This document shows positions 53,797 through 64,000 of a stretch of 64,000 nucleotides of DNA, one piece after another. A program made the position numbers and the translations under genes. Each line of letters starts with the position of its first letter. Position 1 is the first letter of the stretch. The stretch comes from Variovorax paradoxus EPS (GTDB lineage Bacteria > Pseudomonadota > Gammaproteobacteria > Burkholderiales > Burkholderiaceae_C). The notes beneath the pieces were generated by a model. That model worked only from the letters and a program-made list of their open reading frames with translations. It was not told the origin of the DNA and did not search any database. The stretch covers positions 4,154,001 to 4,218,000 of the forward strand of contig NC_014931.1 in NCBI RefSeq assembly GCF_000184745.1, read 5' to 3'.

Positions 53797-54306
53797 TCAA
53801 GTTGTGCGGGGTTGCATGCGGCGGTAATTCACTTCGACCGCCAGAGCCTCGTCGCCGGAGAGCGTGATGTTGTACATGCGCAGGTCGAGCGTGTCATCGT
53901 CAGGCTGCTCGATGACCGTGCGCCAGCCCCAGCGCGAACCGTCTTGTCCATCGCCGTAACTGCCCAGCATCGACAGGCGCGGATCGCCACCTTCACCCGT
54001 GCTGAACATGATGGAAGTGCCGGTGCCGAAACTCTCGGCCCAGGCCGATTCGTACCGGCGCTCGTCCAGGTGGTGGGCGATCAGTGCGACACCTTCCATC
54101 GGCTCGCCTGCACAGCTGCCGGTGTATTCGTGCAACAGCACCCGACCGCCCAACAGCACGCGGATGCTGCCTCGCTGCACCGATTCTTCGGCCGGCTTGC
54201 CGGGCTCGAACCAGAGGCGGAAGCGGCCCTCCCACTGCCCCGCCATGCGCGCCAGTTGCGCGTGCACGCCGTTGGCCAGCGACGCTTCGAATTCCTTGCG
54301 ACCCAT
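53797..54306 (-). CDS. DUF1579-like (lipocalin-like) protein
   Basis: A 169-residue soluble protein with the DUF1579 pattern MAGQWEGRFRLWFEPGKPAE, then VLLGGRVLLHEYTGSCAGEP, GVALIAHHLDERRYESAW and a closing DEALAVEVNYRRM. Family members form a beta-barrel of unknown function. The start at 54306 has AAGGAG directly upstream. The GST gene now split by an IS followed 31 bases downstream, so the two were probably an operon. Confidence 0.82.
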   Translation of the reverse strand: MGRKEFEASLANGVHAQLARMAGQWEGRFRLWFEPGKPAEESVQRGSIRVLLGGRVLLHEYTGSCAGEPMEGVALIAHHLDERRYESAWAESFGTGTSIMFSTGEGGDPRLSMLGSYGDGQDGSRWGWRTVIEQPDDDTLDLRMYNITLSGDEALAVEVNYRRMQPRTT

Positions 54307-54582
54307 GCGTTCTCCTTCAAGGCAGTGATATGTGCGAGGGACGAACTCTGCCACGCAGAGAGAGCTCGTCAACTCGGAACACCACTGCGAATCGGGGTGG
54401 ATTCGAGCTTGCTATCCAGGGTGAGCCTGCGTGCCGTAGGTCATTGGATTCATCTCGCCTTGCCTTGTGTCAAGCTCGATTCCTCAGCGTGGCTGCTCTT
54501 CGACGCCGCCGCGCCAGGCAATCCAAATGCCCGGTTGCCTCACTCAAATTTCAAACGCATCGACGCGGAATAAGGAATTCAC

Positions 54583-54773: not shown

Positions 54774-55427
54774 TCAATACAGCCACTTCCGCACAAGAGA
54801 CTCGCCGAAACGATGTGCCAGCAGCGCTTCCCCGCCCTCCTCGTCATCGCAAATTTCCGCCAGGCAGCGAATCATCAAAGCGTCGAGATAGTCTGAGACG
54901 GAAGAGAAGAACCGCGTCAACGGCTCGCCATCGTCGTGATCGAAGTAGTAGACCTCGCCCCTCTGCCGGTGAAAGCAGAACATGTTGCCGTTGCCGAGAT
55001 AGTCGCCGAAGGCCACCATCTCGTCGGCCAGCGCGAGAAGGACATCGCCATCGGGCAGATCTTCGGCAATGTCGACGATGCCAGGGTAGGCCTCGCGCAA
55101 GGCCTGAATCGGCGTGTCGCCCATCTCGACGCCGCACAGGGTCTCAGCCAAAGACAGCGCACCGAACTGGCGATGGTATTCGCGCAGTGGCGCGGGCAAG
55201 CGGCAGCCCAGACGTGCTTCCAGCGCATCCAGATCGGCATCGCTCGAGGGATTGATCGATGCCTGGCTCACATGGCCTTGCCACAGGGCGGCGTATGCAC
55301 CGATCACGTCGGCGTACCAGCGGCCGCGAGCCATTGGATCGGACAGTTCCGGCCACATCAGTGGCGGACAGCCGTCGGGCGGCCACGGCGGGGATGATTC
55401 GGATGGTTCGGTTGACTCAATCATCAT
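54774..55427 (-). CDS. SMI1/KNR4 (SUKH) family protein, immunity-like
   Basis: A 217-residue SUKH-superfamily protein. The diagnostic stretch is LDALEARLGCRLPAPLREYHRQFGAL (about residues 68-93), followed by GNGNMFCFHRQRGEVYYFDHDDGE near 146-170. Bacterial SUKH proteins commonly neutralise partner toxins of polymorphic toxin or type VI systems. No toxin gene remains beside it. The ATG at 55427 or 55424 may be used. Confidence 0.83.
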   Translation of the reverse strand: MMIESTEPSESSPPWPPDGCPPLMWPELSDPMARGRWYADVIGAYAALWQGHVSQASINPSSDADLDALEARLGCRLPAPLREYHRQFGALSLAETLCGVEMGDTPIQALREAYPGIVDIAEDLPDGDVLLALADEMVAFGDYLGNGNMFCFHRQRGEVYYFDHDDGEPLTRFFSSVSDYLDALMIRCLAEICDDEEGGEALLAHRFGESLVRKWLY

Positions 55428-55498
55428 CGTCAAGCTTGAATTGTTCGCCCGGCATCCATGCGTGGCGAGACATGGCATTCATCGTTCTGCGCGCTACC

Positions 55499-57010: not shown

Positions 57011-57450
57011 ATCACGCAAAAAGACATCGCCGGCATGCGTCTCTGCAACAGCCAACTCGCCCGCGAGATGACCGAGTTCATCCGCGACACCGAAAGCGAT
57101 CTGCTCTTTCACCACTCCGCTCGAGTCTATTGCTGGGGCGCCTTGACCGGCGCACGCACTGGATCGACGTTCGATCCCGAGTTGCTGTACGCGGCCTCCA
57201 CGTTTCAGGACATCGGCCTCACTGCGCGCTGAACAGATCCAGCTTCGCTTCGAGGCGGACGGCGCGAACGCCGCGCGCGATTTTCTTCGGGGACATGGCA
57301 TCTCGGAGCGCGACATCGAGACGGTCTGGAACGCCGTTGCGCTCCACACGACGCCCGACATCCCGCAATTCATGCGTCCCGAATTGCGCTGGTGCTGACG
57401 GACGCCAGCATGGACGTGGCCGGCCCCAACCCGGCACGCGCACCCGTTGC
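57011..57450 (+). pseudogene. Decayed HD-domain (cyanamide hydratase-like) protein gene
   Basis: Three consecutive frames spell one HD-domain protein: DIAGMRLCNSQLAREMTEFI and SDLLFHHSARVYCWGALTG up to a stop at 57232; then EQIQLRFEADGANAARDFLR and VWNAVALHTTPDIPQFMRPE; then IALVLTDASMDVAG. The metal-binding HD pair is also damaged (FQDIG where HD proteins have FHDMG). An AGAGGA site is followed by ATCACGCAA, suggesting that the original ATG start has mutated to ATC. It is clearly non-functional. Confidence 0.75.
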
Positions 57451-57605
57451 CGAGGGTGCGCGTCGAGTAAGGCGATCGACCACAGCCGCACGCGCAGTGC
57501 CTGCAGAACGCGGCGCTGGAAGACACCACGGTTCAGCGCCGTCCGACACGGCGCCCGGCCGCCGGCCCCGAGACTCCCTCATCCCCAAAAAAATCCGGAG
57601 GTGAG

Positions 57606-57824
57606 ATGAATCAAAGCGCTTGCAAAAGCAGGCAGCCGTCGCAACGCCCCAGCGGCGAGTTCCTGCTCCTGATCGTGGTTGCAGTCTTGGTCACCACCAT
57701 TGCGCTCCTGCATCTTGCGGTCGAACGCGAACGTGCCGTGGGGCCGCTGGATCTGCAGCTGGTTTCCAGCATGGGGTTTGATGCGCCTGCCGCTGGTAGC
57801 CGAGGCGATTCGAAGGGACAGTGA
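57606..57824 (+). CDS. Small single-pass membrane protein
   Basis: A 72-residue protein with one hydrophobic helix (about residues 18-39, EFLLLIVVAVLVTTIALLHL) and a hydrophilic tail. A strong GGAGGTGAG ribosome site stands immediately before the ATG, better than most in this window. No homologue is recognised. It follows the HD-domain remnant. Confidence 0.55.
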   Translation: MNQSACKSRQPSQRPSGEFLLLIVVAVLVTTIALLHLAVERERAVGPLDLQLVSSMGFDAPAAGSRGDSKGQ

Positions 57825-57971
57825 GGTGCGGGCCGTTGGCCCGCCGCATGAGTCTCAACACACAGAGCAGCGCAGCTCAAGTGCTCAATGCCGCGATGAG
57901 CTGCCTAAGGTAATGAAAAACGAAGTCGAACTCGGCTTGAAGGAGCAACCGAGCTGAACTGGCGCATAAAA

Positions 57972-58005
57972 AAAGCCGGCTAGCAAACGCTAACCGGCTT
58001 TCTCT
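57972..58005 (+). terminator. Intrinsic terminator
   Basis: AAAGCCGG (57972-57979) pairs with CCGGCTTT (57994-58001), with TAG/CTA pairs inside the loop; an A-run precedes and a T-rich stretch follows. It could end the transcript of the small membrane protein gene at 57606. Confidence 0.7.
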
Positions 58006-58083
58006 TACTGTCGTGTGAAACCGATCGAATGATCGCCCAGAAGGCGCATAAAACCTAGACCATGAGGACGCTGAAAACTCACC

Positions 58084-58103
58084 GTACCCCCGTTTGTACC
58101 CCC
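58084..58103. repeat. Paired GTACCCCC motif, possible remnant of an integrative element
   Basis: GTACCCCC occurs twice, 12 bases apart (58084-58091 and 58096-58103). Such G-rich GGGGGTAC pairs are often found just upstream of tyrosine-integrase genes next to attachment sites. No integrase gene is left here; an IS copy begins 148 bases further on. The remainder of 57825-58251 has no gene I can support. Confidence 0.35.
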
Positions 58104-58251
58104 ACCTGCTAGCCCATAGTTTCTGTGGCGTACGCGCATCGTTCAGTTGGAGTCTCATCAGCCGTTCACGCCCGCCCCGTCGCGTGCACGCAGTACCGCA
58201 ATCTGCCGAACTCGTCACGGGCAATTCACTGGCACTCGTGATGCTGTTGAC

Positions 58252-59416
58252 TGATCTTGCCCCCGTATTTCAGGACACGGGCTATTCGCAATGTAGCGTC
58301 TGCTCGATCTGAGCAAGACCCTGGTTGGCAGCGCGATGCTGCCTGAACTCCCTGGGTGATTTCATCTTCAATGCCGAGTGCGGATGCACCTCATTGAAGT
58401 GCTCGAAGGCTGCGGCCATCTGCGCCATCACCGTTCTCGCATCGGCAAGGTCCATGCGGCTGACGTAGTCGCGCTTGAACGTGTTCACGAAGCTCTCGGC
58501 GATGCCGTTGCTCTGGGGGCTGCACACGGGCGTGTTGACTGGGCTCAGGCCCAGTTGTCGAGCGATCTGCCGGGTCTCGGCAGCGATGTAGGCGCCCCCG
58601 TTGTCCGAGAGGAACTCCAAGACGTGGGTACTGGGAACACCCTCGACGCCGCCGAAGCGCTTCTCCACGGCCTCGATGAGCATTTCGCGCACCGGCTCGC
58701 CCGGCAGCCCTTTGCCCTCCCATGCCCGATAGGCCAGGATCTCACGGTCGCAGCAGTCCTTGGTGAAGGTCGCGGTCACGGTCTGCCCCGAATCACACTT
58801 GATCTCGAAGCCGTCCGAGCACCAGCGCATGTCGCTGTGCGCGACGGCCACCTTGCCCTCATGGGGCCGGCTGGACTGGCGCCGTCTCGGCGCCTTCGGT
58901 AGCAGCAATGCATGAGCCGCCATCACGCGGTAGATGCGCTTGGCGTTCACTCGCGTCGCACCGGTGGTGGCTCGATGCCGGTTCACCAACGCGCAGGCAC
59001 GCCGGTAGCCATAGGTCGGCAACTCGGTGATCTGGGCCTTGATCTCGTCGAGCAAGGCCACGTCGCTTGCAGGCGCCGTGCGTCGTGTCCGGGCGTCGAT
59101 CCAGGACTCGGAGCGAGCTTGCAAGCGATGAATGTTCGAGCGCGCCAACCCAAGGGCCTGGCAGACGGCCTTCACTGGCCGTCCCCGTCCAGCAAGGGCG
59201 AGCGCGCAATCCATTTTTTTTCCGCGGCGTACTCCACAGCTTCCTTGAGGATCTCGTTCTCCAGCGTCTTCTTGCCAAGCACGCGCTGAAGCTTGGCGAT
59301 CTCGGCACGAGCGGCTGCCAGTTCCGAAGCCGGCACCACAGCCTCGCCCGCCGATACAGCCGTCAGCGCCCCTTGCCGCTCCAGCTTGCGCCACTGGAAC
59401 AGCAGGCTGGCGGCAA
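58252..59416 (-). mobile_element. IS3-family (IS2-group-like) insertion sequence, copy 2, truncated
   Basis: Nearly identical to copy 1 from its left end (TGATCTTGCCCCC) up to the base equivalent to 53371 of copy 1, where it is cut by a different IS3-family element at 59417. The missing 212 bases include the right terminal repeat and the start of orfA. No target duplication can be recognised. It cannot transpose by itself. Confidence 0.92.
58282..59416 (-). pseudogene. Transposase of IS copy 2, orfA truncated
   Basis: OrfB is intact and almost identical to copy 1 (a few substitutions, for example RQHRAANQGLAQ at the end). OrfA has lost its start and helix-turn-helix and opens into the neighbouring element. 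The slippery run has eight A's here (59214-59221), which keeps the normal -1 relation of the two frames. Confidence 0.88.
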
Positions 59417-60737
59417 TGAATCGCCCCGGCTTTTGTGGAGGCTCAACACTCTGAGAGGATTGAGCCATGAAGAAGTCGAACAAGTTTTCACCCGAGGTGC
59501 GTGAGCGCGCGGTGAGGATGGTGCAGGAGCACCGCGGGGAGTACCCGTCGCTGTGGGCGGCAGTCGAGTCGATCGCACCGAAGATCGGCTGTGTGCCGCA
59601 GACGCTGAACGAATGGGTCAAGCGCGACGAGGTCGACAACGGCGTTCGAGAAGGCGTGACGACCAGCGAGGCCCAGCGGATGAAGGAGCTCGAACGCGAG
59701 GTCAAGGAGCTGCGCCGAGCCAACGAGATCCTGAAGCTGGCGAGCGCGTTTTTCGCCCAGGCGGAGCTCGACCGCCGGCTGAAGTCCTGAGGGATTTCAT
59801 CGACAAGCATCGCGGCACCTTCGGGGTCGAGCCGATCTGCAAGGTCTTGCAGGTCGCCCCGTCGGGCTACCGGCGGCACGCGGCGCTGCTGCGTGAGCCG
59901 CACAAGCGCTGCGCCAGAGCACACCGCGACGATGTCCTCATGCCGGCGATACAGCGCGTCTGGCAGGCCAACATGCAGGTCTATGGCGCCGACAAGGTCT
60001 GGAGGCAACTGGCACGCGAAGGCACGGCTGTGGCCCGCTGCACAGTCGAGCGTCTGATGCGGCGCCTGGGGCTGAGAGGCGTAATGCGCGGCAAGGTGGT
60101 GAAGACCACGATCAGCGATGCCAGAGCACCATGCCCGCTGGATCGTGTCAACCGGCAGTTCCGAGCACAGCGCCCGAACCAGCTATGGGTCTCGGATTTC
60201 ACGTACGTGTCGACATGGCAGGGCTGGCTGTACGTCGCCTTCGTGATCGATGTGTTCGCCCGACGCATCGTGGGCTGGCGGGTCAGCAACTCGATGCGCA
60301 CGGACTTCGTGCTCGATGCTTTGGAGCAAGCGCTGTACGACCGTCAACCCGAACGCGACGGCAGCTTGATTTGTCACTCCGATCGCGGGTCGCAATACGT
60401 CAGCATCCGATACACCGAACGGCTTGCAGAGGCTGGCATCGAGCCATCAGTGGGAAGCAAAGGCGACTCCTATGACAACGCCCTGGCCGAGACGATCAAC
60501 GGCCTCTATAAGGCCGAGTTGATCCATCGCCGAGCACCGTGGAAGACCAAGGAGGCGGTGGAGTTCGCGACGCTCGAGTGGGTGGCCTGGTTCAACCACC
60601 ATCGCCTGCTCGAACCCATCGGCTACATCCCGCCTGCAGAAGCTGAGGCAAACTATTACCGGCAACTCGCCAGTCAGACCGCCAAGATGGCGGCTTGACT
60701 TAAACCAATCGGCCTCCATGAAAGCCGGGGCGATTCA
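59417..60737 (+). mobile_element. Second type of IS3-family insertion sequence, complete
   Basis: A 1,321-bp element with inverted ends TGAATCGCCCCGGCTTTTGT (left) and, reversed, TGAATCGCCCCGGCTTTCAT (right). It encodes orfA and orfB on the + strand. The flanks differ (CAA before, CTG after), so no target duplication is present: the left flank is IS copy 2 and the right flank is the nuclease gene. Its position at a junction of unrelated sequences suggests a deletion or rearrangement after insertion. Confidence 0.92.
59467..60698 (+). CDS. IS3-family transposase OrfAB (programmed -1 frameshift)
   Basis: OrfA (59467-59790, 107 residues) has the helix-turn-helix [20 protein letters not shown] and a leucine-rich coiled coil ([20 protein letters not shown]). 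OrfB, in the -1 frame and open to 60698, has the DDE residues in [22 protein letters not shown] and [15 protein letters not shown], and ends [27 protein letters not shown] run near the end of orfA (about 59749-59754) is a likely slippage site. Confidence 0.92.
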
Positions 60738-62788
60738 CTGTCATCTCTCAGCGCTATCAAAAGCTCCTCCAGCGACAGCTTGAGAAATCCCGAGAATCTC
60801 TCGTGATCCCGTTCGATCGAGGTATCGACGATCCAACCATGAATCGGCGGTACGCTTCCAGTTAGTTCCAGCCCGAGGCAACCCGCCAACTCGCCCCCTC
60901 GCGCCAGCGCCTCAAGCACGGCGGCCACCTTGCGCTGCAACTGCTGTCCCGCGCGTCTCAGTGTCGTTGTGGCGTGCAGCCATGCGTCGCGCTGCGACTT
61001 GCGGACGAACGTGGACTTCACCTCGATAACGAAGACAGTGCCATCCCTGGCGCAGATCAGGTCGACCTCGCCAGCGTTTCCATGCGTTTCCGTCGGCGGA
61101 TGCCAGTTCAGCATCACCTTGAACCCGCGCGCCTCCAACGCCGTCCCAAGGCGCGTTTCGATGCGCTGCGTCTCCTCTCGCGCCTCACCCCTTCGCGCGC
61201 CAAGCCGGCGCAGGTTGTTGATCGCAGCGGTGCTGTTGTTCTGCATGCCGACCAGCCAAGGCAGCTGCACCAGGCGCTGCCCGAACTTCAAAATCGGTCG
61301 TTCAAACAGTTCGGGCCGCAAGCCAGCTTGAGAGTTGCGGACCTGCGCCGCCAGCAAAGCCCAGTCGCTCGTCCAAAAATCCAGAATGCGGGCCGCCATG
61401 CGAGGACTGCCTTGCGGTGTCTTGGAACTCACCGTCCACCCGGTGATGCGCGAGATCTTGGCTTCACGATCCGACCACGTGAGCGGCAGGCGGTTCTCCA
61501 GAGTCTGGCCGAAACCGCCGACGATGAGCTTTTCGAGCGCGGTCACCCAATCCGCAGAGTCATCAAGGTGTTTGACGTACTCGCCAATGAAATCGTGAAG
61601 GAAAAATGCCGACATCAGCTCCAGCGAGAGCAGCGCCTGGAACAAGTCGACCGAATCGCCCGCGTCCGTGGTCACGGTGTCTGCCACGCCGTAGACTTCA
61701 GTGAGTTGTAGCCGGGTGCGCATCGCGCGGATGTAGGCCAACCGGTTCGCCTCGTGGTTCTCCGGTCGTCCGATCGTGTGCGTCGCGATCTCCGAGCCAG
61801 CGAATTCGTCCAGCGCCCTGTAGAACCAGTACTCGTGCAATCGCGCCAGCTTGCGGCCGTCCCGTGACCACGGGGCACGTGCAACAGGCTCCATTTCCTC
61901 GATTTCCAACACCGCTCCGTTGCGGACAAACCGGATGCCGTCGTCGTAGCTGAACGCATCAGCGGATAGGGAGACGAATTCGTTCAGTTCGATCTGTGCT
62001 TCCAGGAGCGCACCGAACGCGGCTCGCATTTCATGCGCAACAACTGACTGCGCCGTCGAAGACGGAGACAAGAGCGGGGCGAGGTGCTCGCCCAGCGAGC
62101 GGCCGATATCTGCCTCGTGCAGTTTCAGCGCGCTCTCTGGCGCGGTGGCGAGCTTCCACAGCAGGATGTCGTTGATAGCATGCCAAGTGACCTCATCGGC
62201 GGAGGCTGCACCGTCCGACCGGGGCGACGGTGCAAGGCTGTGGGGCAGGATGTGCTCGAAGGCATGCAGGCTGGCATGAATCAGGAGATCGAATGGTGTC
62301 AGTTCCCTCAATGCGCTCCGCGCGTGCTCCAACGCCGTGAGCCGGTCACGGTGCGCCAACTCGAAGACGTCGAGAACCTTGCAAAGCTCGGCAACTTCGG
62401 GATGAGCTCCCGCGATCTGGTCGAAATCCGTCCGGCGGGGGGAATGCTGGCAAAGGACCAGTCCGGAGTAGCGCACCGCGTTGCGCAAGGCGCTGGGTGA
62501 GTCTGTGGCGATGCGCGCCAGGAGATCCACATTGGCCACGCGTTCCTGCGCAAAATACCGTGCCAGCGCCAACACCATCAGGTCCGATCCCCAGACCTCC
62601 GAGGGCAACTCCTCGAAAAATCGACTCGACCAGAAATCAATGTCGCGCTCTGCCGACGTGACCTTGTACTTTCCGCGAAGCTTGGGCTTTCCATCCAGAT
62701 AGGCGCTGGCCGTTGCTTCTGCTGCGGCATGCAGGGAAGCCTGCGCTGTCAACTGCTGCCGGAAGTATGGGTCGTAGAAGTTGAGCAC
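60674..62788 (-). CDS. Large protein with C-terminal PD-(D/E)XK nuclease motif, truncated by an IS
   Basis: An unrecognised protein of about 700 residues, largely helical, ending in a nuclease-like domain: RGFKVMLNWHPPTE, then GEVDLICARDG and VFVIEVKS, giving the D...ExK triad (Asp576, Glu589, Lys591 from the GTG at 62788). A basic helix (FVRKSQRDAW) follows. The last roughly 20 residues (after LLIALRDDS) are encoded by the end of the neighbouring IS element, so the native C-terminus is lost. The start is uncertain: GTG 62788 begins the well-composed part; a TTG at 62899 extends it. IS copies on both sides suggest a transferred defence or mobile-element gene. Confidence 0.7.
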   Translation of the reverse strand: MLNFYDPYFRQQLTAQASLHAAAEATASAYLDGKPKLRGKYKVTSAERDIDFWSSRFFEELPSEVWGSDLMVLALARYFAQERVANVDLLARIATDSPSALRNAVRYSGLVLCQHSPRRTDFDQIAGAHPEVAELCKVLDVFELAHRDRLTALEHARSALRELTPFDLLIHASLHAFEHILPHSLAPSPRSDGAASADEVTWHAINDILLWKLATAPESALKLHEADIGRSLGEHLAPLLSPSSTAQSVVAHEMRAAFGALLEAQIELNEFVSLSADAFSYDDGIRFVRNGAVLEIEEMEPVARAPWSRDGRKLARLHEYWFYRALDEFAGSEIATHTIGRPENHEANRLAYIRAMRTRLQLTEVYGVADTVTTDAGDSVDLFQALLSLELMSAFFLHDFIGEYVKHLDDSADWVTALEKLIVGGFGQTLENRLPLTWSDREAKISRITGWTVSSKTPQGSPRMAARILDFWTSDWALLAAQVRNSQAGLRPELFERPILKFGQRLVQLPWLVGMQNNSTAAINNLRRLGARRGEAREETQRIETRLGTALEARGFKVMLNWHPPTETHGNAGEVDLICARDGTVFVIEVKSTFVRKSQRDAWLHATTTLRRAGQQLQRKVAAVLEALARGGELAGCLGLELTGSVPPIHGWIVDTSIERDHERFSGFLKLSLEELLIALRDDSESPRLSWRPIGLSQAAILAV

Positions 62789-62927
62789 TGGGCACAAGAC
62801 AAAGTCGCTCGCTGTATCGGCACGCCAATGTAGCCAGCTACAGTCAACACGAGCACATAGGCGGGAGGATACCGAAAATGCCCTGGGAGGATTTTGCAAT
62901 CACGCGTCAGATCCGTACCCCATACCG

Positions 62928-64000
62928 TGATCTTGCCCCCGTATTTCAGGACACGGGCTATTCGCAATGTAGCGTCTGCTCGATCTGAGCAAGACGCTGG
63001 TTGGCAGCGCGATGCTGCCTGAACTCCCTGGGTGATTTCATCTTCAATGCCGAGTGCGGATGCACCTCATTGAAGTGCTCGAAGGCTGCGGCCATCTGCG
63101 CCATCACCGTTCTCGCATCGGCAAGGTCCATGCGGCTGACGTAGTCGCGCTTGAACGTGTTCACGAAGCTCTCGGCGATGCCGTTGCTCTGGGGGCTGCA
63201 CACGGGCGTGTTGACTGGGCTCAGGCCCAGTTGTCGAGCGATCTGCCGGGTCTCGGCAGCGATGTAGGCGCCCCCGTTGTCCGAGAGGAACTCCAAGACG
63301 TGGGTACTGGGAACACCCTCGACGCCGCCGAAGCGCTTCTCCACGGCCTCGATGAGCATTTCGCGCACCGGCTCGCCCGGCAGCCCTTTGCCCTCCCATG
63401 CCCGATAGGCCAGGATCTCACGGTCGCAGCAGTCCTTGGTGAAGGTCGCGGTCACGGTCTGCCCCGAATCACACTTGATCTCGAAGCCGTCCGAGCACCA
63501 GCGCATGTCGCTGTGCGCGACGGCCACCTTGCCCTCATGGGGCCGGCTGGACTGGCGCCGTCTCGGCGCCTTCGGTAGCAGCAATGCATGAGCCGCCATC
63601 ACGCGGTAGATGCGCTTGGCGTTCACTCGCGTCGCACCGGTGGTGGCTCGATGCCGGTTCACCAACGCGCAGGCACGCCGGTAGCCATAGGTCGGCAACT
63701 CGGTGATCTGGGCCTTGATCTCGTCGAGCAAGGCCACGTCGCTTGCAGGCGCCGTGCGTCGTGTCCGGGCGTCGATCCAGGACTCGGAGCGAGCTTGCAA
63801 GCGATGAATGTTCGAGCGCGCCAACCCAAGGGCCTGGCAGACGGCCTTCACTGGCCGTCCCCGTCCAGCAAGGGCGAGCGCGCAATCCATTTTTTTCCGC
63901 GGCGTACTCCACAGCTTCCTTGAGGATCTCGTTCTCCAGCGTCTTCTTGCCAAGCACGCGCTGTAGCTTGGCGATCTCGGCACGAGCGGCTGCCAGTTCC
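62928..64000 (-). mobile_element. IS3-family (IS2-group-like) insertion sequence, copy 3, cut by window end
   Basis: Begins with TGATCTTGCCCCC and matches copy 1 until the window ends inside orfA. It has the same orientation as copies 1 and 2. One base is missing in the A-run at the orfA-orfB junction compared with copy 2. Confidence 0.92.
62958..64000 (-). CDS. Transposase of IS copy 3, partial at window end
   Basis: OrfB is complete and matches copy 1 (ending [20 protein letters not shown]). The run at 63890-63896 has seven A's followed by TGG, against eight in copy 2; the orfA frame then needs a +1, not a -1, shift to enter orfB. OrfA therefore runs on into an unrelated frame, and this copy may be inactive unless the base count is a sequencing error. 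Confidence 0.82.
   Translation of the reverse strand, partial: NWQPLVPRSPSYSACLARRRWRTRSSRKLWSTPRKKMDCALALAGRGRPVKAVCQALGLARSNIHRLQARSESWIDARTRRTAPASDVALLDEIKAQITELPTYGYRRACALVNRHRATTGATRVNAKRIYRVMAAHALLLPKAPRRRQSSRPHEGKVAVAHSDMRWCSDGFEIKCDSGQTVTATFTKDCCDREILAYRAWEGKGLPGEPVREMLIEAVEKRFGGVEGVPSTHVLEFLSDNGGAYIAAETRQIARQLGLSPVNTPVCSPQSNGIAESFVNTFKRDYVSRMDLADARTVMAQMAAAFEHFNEVHPHSALKMKSPREFRQHRAANQRLAQIEQTLHCE

Follow-up and report, generated by a model that had tools for sequence, protein, structure and literature searches.

In a 64,000-nucleotide stretch of the Variovorax paradoxus EPS genome (NC_014931.1, positions 4,154,001 to 4,218,000; hereafter the window), we analysed a minus-strand gene for a large protein that ends in a nuclease-like domain, and which a sequence-only reading had placed at 60674–62899. 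The open reading frame (ORF) list of the window gives a frame of 741 codons with a TTG start at this position, and comparison with full-length homologues showed that family homology begins at ORF residue 38, a GTG codon at 62788 that is probably the true start of the gene. The frame is therefore open as proposed, but its first 37 and final 21 codons are not family sequence. As judged from its homologues, the ORF is real and represents a shortened member of a coherent protein family: the window protein is 88% identical to residues 3–684 of a 737-residue homologue (P0006), and its loss with respect to this full-length protein, about 53 of 737 residues, is all C-terminal. The gene and its frame are divided as follows.

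60738 to 62788, minus strand: family-homologous part of the nuclease gene, with the GTG start at 62788 and the C-terminal ~53 residues of the family missing
61175 to 62788, minus strand: N-terminal ~535–538 residues, without significant library match and with helix-like hydrophobic periodicity
61013 to 61174, minus strand: PD-(D/E)XK nuclease core (ETQRIE, GEVDLI, IEVKS; E, D, E and K invariant)
60738 to 61012, minus strand: stretch after the core, still family sequence (DTSIERDH, LLIALRDD)
60674 to 60737, minus strand: final 21 codons of the frame (721–741), encoded by an insertion sequence (IS) and foreign to the gene
62789 to 62899, minus strand: 37 in-frame codons 5' of the family start, outside the family homology

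The lost C-terminal segment holds residues conserved in the family (G718 is invariant, F719 and W734 nearly so), and because this segment is gone the window copy is probably inactive. Full-length homologues are common, in agreement with the suggestion that the window copy, which lost its C terminus to an IS, is a relic of a system intact elsewhere. A simple scan of 62600–63200 found no promoter.

The C-terminal domain is, to judge by its motifs, a PD-(D/E)XK nuclease with a complete active-site pattern, and the core recognised in the sequence-only reading is present in full in the window copy, with ETQRIE at 61174–61157, GEVDLI at 61072–61055 and IEVKS at 61027–61013. When a family profile of 21 members was compared with PDB sequences, the best matches, at weak significance, were archaeal Hjc resolvases (E 0.0067–0.016). 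Residues E544, D576, E589 and K591 of P0006 pair with the E, D, E and K of PDB entries 4tkd and 2eo0, which we take to be the catalytic residues of the Hjc chains; none of the four varies among the 40 homologues aligned, and the window copy retains them all. Thirteen further positions, tabulated because the alignment had already shown them to be invariant, are likewise identical in 40/40. With the window protein, the Pfam NERD model (PF08378) scored 20.8 bits (19.0 bits with P0006), under its gathering cut-off of 22.1, the Pfam Hjc model 12.3 bits (cut-off 21.1), the NCBIfam YraN model 24.1 bits, far under its cut-off of 124, and the PADLOC Cas4 model reached E 0.0053. A Pfam scan of 40 family members reported NERD in 16 of them at E ≤ 0.01 (best 1.4e-5), Hjc in one and DUF4143 in one. 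The PADLOC model PDLC02906, 'Viperin-associated NERD', matched the window protein at E 4.4e-18, aligning residues 568–721 only with model positions 397–524 of 542. Homology to a characterised non-defence family is weak and does not reach beyond the nuclease core (Hjc at E 0.0067, with YraN far under its cut-off).

The ~535 residues before the nuclease had no significant match in Pfam, PADLOC, NCBIfam or the PDB sequences. The earlier statement that the protein matches nothing holds for this region but not overall, since 777 homologues were found and the C terminus has some similarity to the NERD, YraN and Viperin-associated NERD models; 'unrecognised' was also too strong, as some members are already named 'NERD domain-containing', 'nuclease-related domain-containing' or 'Holliday junction resolvase-like' in their sources. 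A helical N-terminal region, as previously proposed, is consistent with the hydrophobic periodicity, the one observation on which this assignment is based: 66–79% of windows are helix-like in residues 1–500, as compared with 41% in residues 541–670. This region is under purifying selection; the ratio of non-synonymous to synonymous substitution rates against the Variovorax guangxiensis homologue is 0.169 for the first 500 codons and 0.129 for the rest, synonymous sites being near saturation in other pairs. A search with the Arcobacter homologue, in which an N-terminal region shared with another effector was sought, returned 16 proteins of 435–694 residues.

The ISs reported on both sides of the gene are indeed present, and the C-terminal end of the frame is IS-encoded, codons 721–741 being supplied by the element that we call IS-c.

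59417 to 60737, plus strand: IS-c, a 1321-bp IS identical to at least five other copies in the genome
58252 to 59416, minus strand: shortened copy of a second IS, IS-b (complete length 1377–1378 bp)
62928 to 64000, minus strand: complete IS-b copy upstream of the gene, running on to 64304, with a 3-bp target-site duplication (CCG)

The IS-c copy in the window is without a target-site duplication and abuts the shortened IS-b copy; among five other IS-c copies in the genome, three have a duplication of 3–4 bp and two have none. We infer that an IS-linked deletion beside the inserted IS-c took away the gene end along with the remainder of the adjoining IS-b, which would account for both truncations and would fit the missing duplication. 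The upstream IS-b copy spared 139 bp ahead of the start codon.

Family members are roughly 680–790 residues long. At E 1e-3, 777 homologues were found among 8000 proteins scored, and 780 with a profile, the best 120 of each being listed. Scanning species genomes yielded 64 loci, the majority in Beta- and Gammaproteobacteria, the rest coming from Desulfobulbia, a single Sphingopyxis bin and some bins whose labels are doubtful. Full-length homology extends the family to Campylobacterota, through an Arcobacter branch carried on plasmids, of which nine aligned proteins are homologous over 670 columns (hhalign E 1.1e-81). A quick tree built from 61 rows places the window gene with that of V. guangxiensis; class labels change 7 times against a minimum of 4, which fits some transfer without proving it, and several branches are long. 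At E 1e-20, and with its own genome counted, the gene occurred in 7/101 genomes of the genus Variovorax, 5/399 of the family, 1/300 of the order and 2/398 of the phylum, a search in which few first-look candidates were scored per genome and distant copies may be missed. Four of the seven genus copies are interrupted or partial (G054, G068, G086, G088), in addition to the shortened window copy. Homologues were found in 8 of 72,556 plasmid records; none of 50,697 phage records carried one, and a phage origin was rejected. Two IMG/VR contigs matched. The family is not described in the open-licence literature searched, with most subscription journals outside its scope. A Vibrio pangenome study reports a phage-associated cluster with integrases and a NERD domain-containing protein, which may or may not belong to the present family (PMC12409351).

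Several individual homologues have distinctive surroundings. On two Aeromonas media plasmids (L131:10052-14604, L086:10052-11986) they lie between IS elements near resistance genes, and in one of these records the homologue is split by an IS21-like element. The Arcobacter plasmid homologue (L088:8403-13424) lies directly upstream of an annotated dGTPase gene and downstream of a DUF2779 gene, and in Variovorax G030 the homologue is ~0.8 kb away from genes for three tRNAs (Ala, Glu, Asp; L121:8229-8577).

To describe the surroundings of the family, we collected up to two genes per side of the 64 loci (120–1100 residues; 219 genes, in batches of 110 and 109) and, under the same size filter, 108 control genes drawn from 18 stretches in 3 genomes; both sets are mechanical ORFs, some of them spurious. 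At E 1e-10, the two neighbour batches matched 191 and 119 PADLOC model families, respectively, as compared with 30 for the control genes. Among the 25 families listed per batch were GajA, GajB, mad3, REase_I, REase_III, MTase_III, and IIG and type IV enzymes, together with DrmD, DpdE, DruH, PbeA, a DRT component (RTasRmuC) and WYL; GajA and GajB stand for Gabija, DrmD for DISARM and DruH for Druantia. A search with six reference proteins detected AlpA in 13 of the 64 loci, a WYL regulator in 9, HsdM-like proteins in 6, YagK/YfjJ in 5, Fic in 4 and an integrase in 3, and none of them in the 18 control stretches (1153 kb of loci against 216 kb of control). The HsdM-like gene of one locus (L061) encodes HsdM_N and N6_Mtase domains, as in type I systems. 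The homologues occupy accessory, not core, contexts, and the defence-gene company sought for them was found in the form of many known defence genes, but housekeeping and mobility genes are neighbours as well.

By clustering, the commonest neighbour family was present in no more than 8 of the 64 loci, so no obligatory partner was seen and the gene is treated as solo. As regards a cognate methyltransferase, such as a type II restriction-modification system would have, no constant neighbour methyltransferase was found in the 64 loci.

The window gene itself sits in an accessory island of about 41 kb, as deduced from the points at which relatives break off and from a tRNA-Pro gene at the right end.

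57426 to 64000, no strand: left part of the ~41-kb island, which ends beyond the window at tRNA-Pro, window-equivalent position 98242

The chromosome of the close relative G009, 92–93% identical here, matches the window to 56905, one IS copy apart; there follow 3.6 kb of different DNA, and matching begins again at window-equivalent 98233. G062 matches to 57425, and G061 and G071 diverge at about 51.27 kb. At the right end, tRNA-Pro (GGG) (L090:16242-16318) is followed by merR-, ihfA- and pheT-like genes, and beside it lies a 593-codon gene resembling a phage-type integrase from another locus. We sought this tRNA-Pro block in 25 genomes and counted the six in which it shared a contig with a left-marker match of at least 3.6 kb, in consistent order. 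The distance from left marker to block was 47.0 kb in the genome of the window, 6.6 in G009, 40.4 in G071, 65.4 in G062, 46.3 in G061 and 8.1 in G092, which marks the pheT-ihfA-merR-tRNA-Pro site as a hotspot that varies within Variovorax (6.6–65.4 kb, six genomes). The end of the tRNA recurs as a perfect 46-bp copy close to the left marker in G061, and such copies are also present in G024, G016 and G047; for the left attachment site of the island studied here no convincing copy of the tRNA-Pro end was found, its left end being IS-rearranged.

Core defence hotspot 1 (cDHS1) of Pseudomonas aeruginosa includes pheS, pheT, an ihfA gene, a regulator of the MerR type and a tRNA for proline, according to the excerpt consulted (PMC10250203). 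Four of the 64 loci (L048, L050, L051 and L068), all from Pseudomonas, have pheT, ihfA, merR and tRNA-Pro (GGG) 0.4–8.4 kb from the gene. Past the end of the window, the island carries matches to PADLOC PDC-M27C, B and A (window-equivalent 68209–76423; L089:6209-14423), alongside weaker ZacC and ZacB matches; a PDC-S29/EcsC-like gene adjoins the PDC-M27-like genes, and a UvrD-like helicase is also present. Enclosure by ISs argues only weakly for defence; the tRNA-Pro island and hotspot make the better case. Two island neighbours were considered as partners and rejected: across L007–L070 and L120–L129 the UvrD-like helicase had no homologue at E 1e-10, and the PDC-M27-like operon gave two weak PDC-M27C matches (L059, L062) only.

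Of the described systems, Shedu (SduA) appears to be the closest working analogue, not a family match. It resembles the present family in being a single gene with a diverse N-terminal region and a PD-(D/E)XK domain, and in the sections available its N-terminal clamp binds DNA ends, which relieves autoinhibition of the nuclease domain (PMC12904381). The nuclease of the window family, in contrast, is closer to NERD and Hjc, and the window protein matched no DUF4263 or SduA model in Pfam or PADLOC at E ≤ 10. NERD (PF08378), found in Mokosh type I, Nhi-like proteins, PglW and TALON, is the closest nuclease family by sequence. Systems of this kind pair it with helicase, kinase or YprA components, whereas the window protein has no helicase, kinase or YprA-type domain and no constant partner; with Mokosh and Nhi in mind, Pfam showed no helicase domain in the window protein, and the helicases beside some copies are not constant. 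The occurrence of NERD in several defence systems is documented in those parts of three reports that were consulted (PMC10952713, PMC12839542, PMC12458937). PDLC02906 is alike in the nuclease and in the segment that follows, but its first ~396 positions are unmatched and no viperin was among the 25 families listed per neighbour batch. The archaeal Hjc resolvases share the E-D-E-K pattern, aligned to 4tkd and 2eo0, but are chains of about 140 residues, while here the nuclease is one domain of a ~735-residue protein and the match is weak (E 0.0067).

Since this widespread single-gene nuclease is often found in variable islands near known defences, the family is a good candidate for a new bacterial defence, and one that is easy to test. 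We lean, with some confidence, towards reading it as an anti-invader nuclease that is encoded by one gene and carried by mobile islands. The N-terminal region would act as sensor, clamp and autoinhibitor, and the trigger would be some property of foreign DNA that is entering or being replicated; our best guess is free ends or branched recombination intermediates, because of the Hjc-like catalytic core and the analogy with Shedu. Once triggered, the N-terminal region would release the nuclease, which would then cut DNA with a divalent metal. More tentatively, these proteins may form a new immune family of one gene, spread over Proteobacteria and Campylobacterota, in which an N-terminal sensor joined to a Hjc/NERD-like nuclease recognises foreign DNA by its structure, as ends or branches, and not by its sequence or base modification, and which recurs at a tRNA-Pro defence hotspot common to Variovorax and Pseudomonas. 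The proposal of an undescribed defence effector in the sequence-only reading is supported as far as accessory sites, defence neighbours and the island and hotspot are concerned, but some members already carried labels and the defence role is one that we infer.

Several observations weigh against a defence role. PADLOC has no full-length match for the family; the PADLOC counts are of model families, inflated by related models and helicase cross-hits, and the controls came from three genomes only. The PDC-S02 models match a control gene as well as 3 of 110 neighbours, and many neighbours are non-defence genes, Pfam naming PheT, UmuC-type polymerases, LysR and transposases, with resolvases as well. 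A tRNA gene lay in 9 of 59 homologue loci scanned (5 of the 64 were unscanned) against 3 of 18 control stretches, on which a general association of the homologues with tRNA genes was rejected. Guilt by association, moreover, cannot separate defence from island-borne recombination or plasmid functions. An accessory nuclease serving recombination or maintenance of mobile islands, for instance a branched-DNA resolvase that aids the movement or persistence of an element, would fit the Hjc-type resolvases as best solved-structure sequence matches (E 0.0067–0.016) and the homologues found on plasmids and near AlpA (13/64), YagK/YfjJ (5/64) and integrase (3/64) genes; we nevertheless consider it unlikely, as contexts vary widely with no constant mobility partner, and the matching resolvases, of ~140 residues, have no counterpart of the ~535-residue N-terminal region.

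Somewhat less probable still is a type IV-like restriction enzyme that depends on modification and would read a modified base with its N-terminal region: Pfam scanning of the window protein and 40 members gave only NERD, Hjc and one DUF4143, with no known modified-base reader domain, although a single gene with a PD-(D/E)XK nuclease, no constant methyltransferase and other restriction enzymes nearby is what such an enzyme might look like. UmuC/UmuD-type genes neighbour the family in a few loci and would suit a housekeeping DNA-repair nuclease, a role made very improbable by a rare and patchy distribution (7/101 genus and 5/399 family genomes), with four of the seven genus copies fragmentary or interrupted and the window copy shortened. 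An anti-invader nuclease thus remains the reading that we prefer, and the family would then be a defined, easily cloned one-gene addition to the likely defence nucleases, with an N-terminal region that the libraries do not recognise. Its loci also link cDHS1 of P. aeruginosa to the same pheT-ihfA-merR-tRNA-Pro site in a betaproteobacterium, and the shared site suggests a place to look for further defence systems.

The island and its left flank hold further features. A ShlB-type transporter gene (window-equivalent 77583–79361) and a nearby minus-strand stretch of 3405 codons, uninterrupted between its bounding stops (80291–90505), form a probable two-partner-secretion locus. Adjoining the upstream IS-b copy is a tRNA gene (window-equivalent 64422–64507; L089:2422-2507) with an odd anticodon loop, which ARAGORN reads as 'caaa' and assigns no type, and which scores 44.8 bits with the Rfam tRNA model. 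On the left flank of the island lie a SUKH (SMI1/KNR4) gene at 54774–55478 and a DUF1579 gene at 53797–54372.

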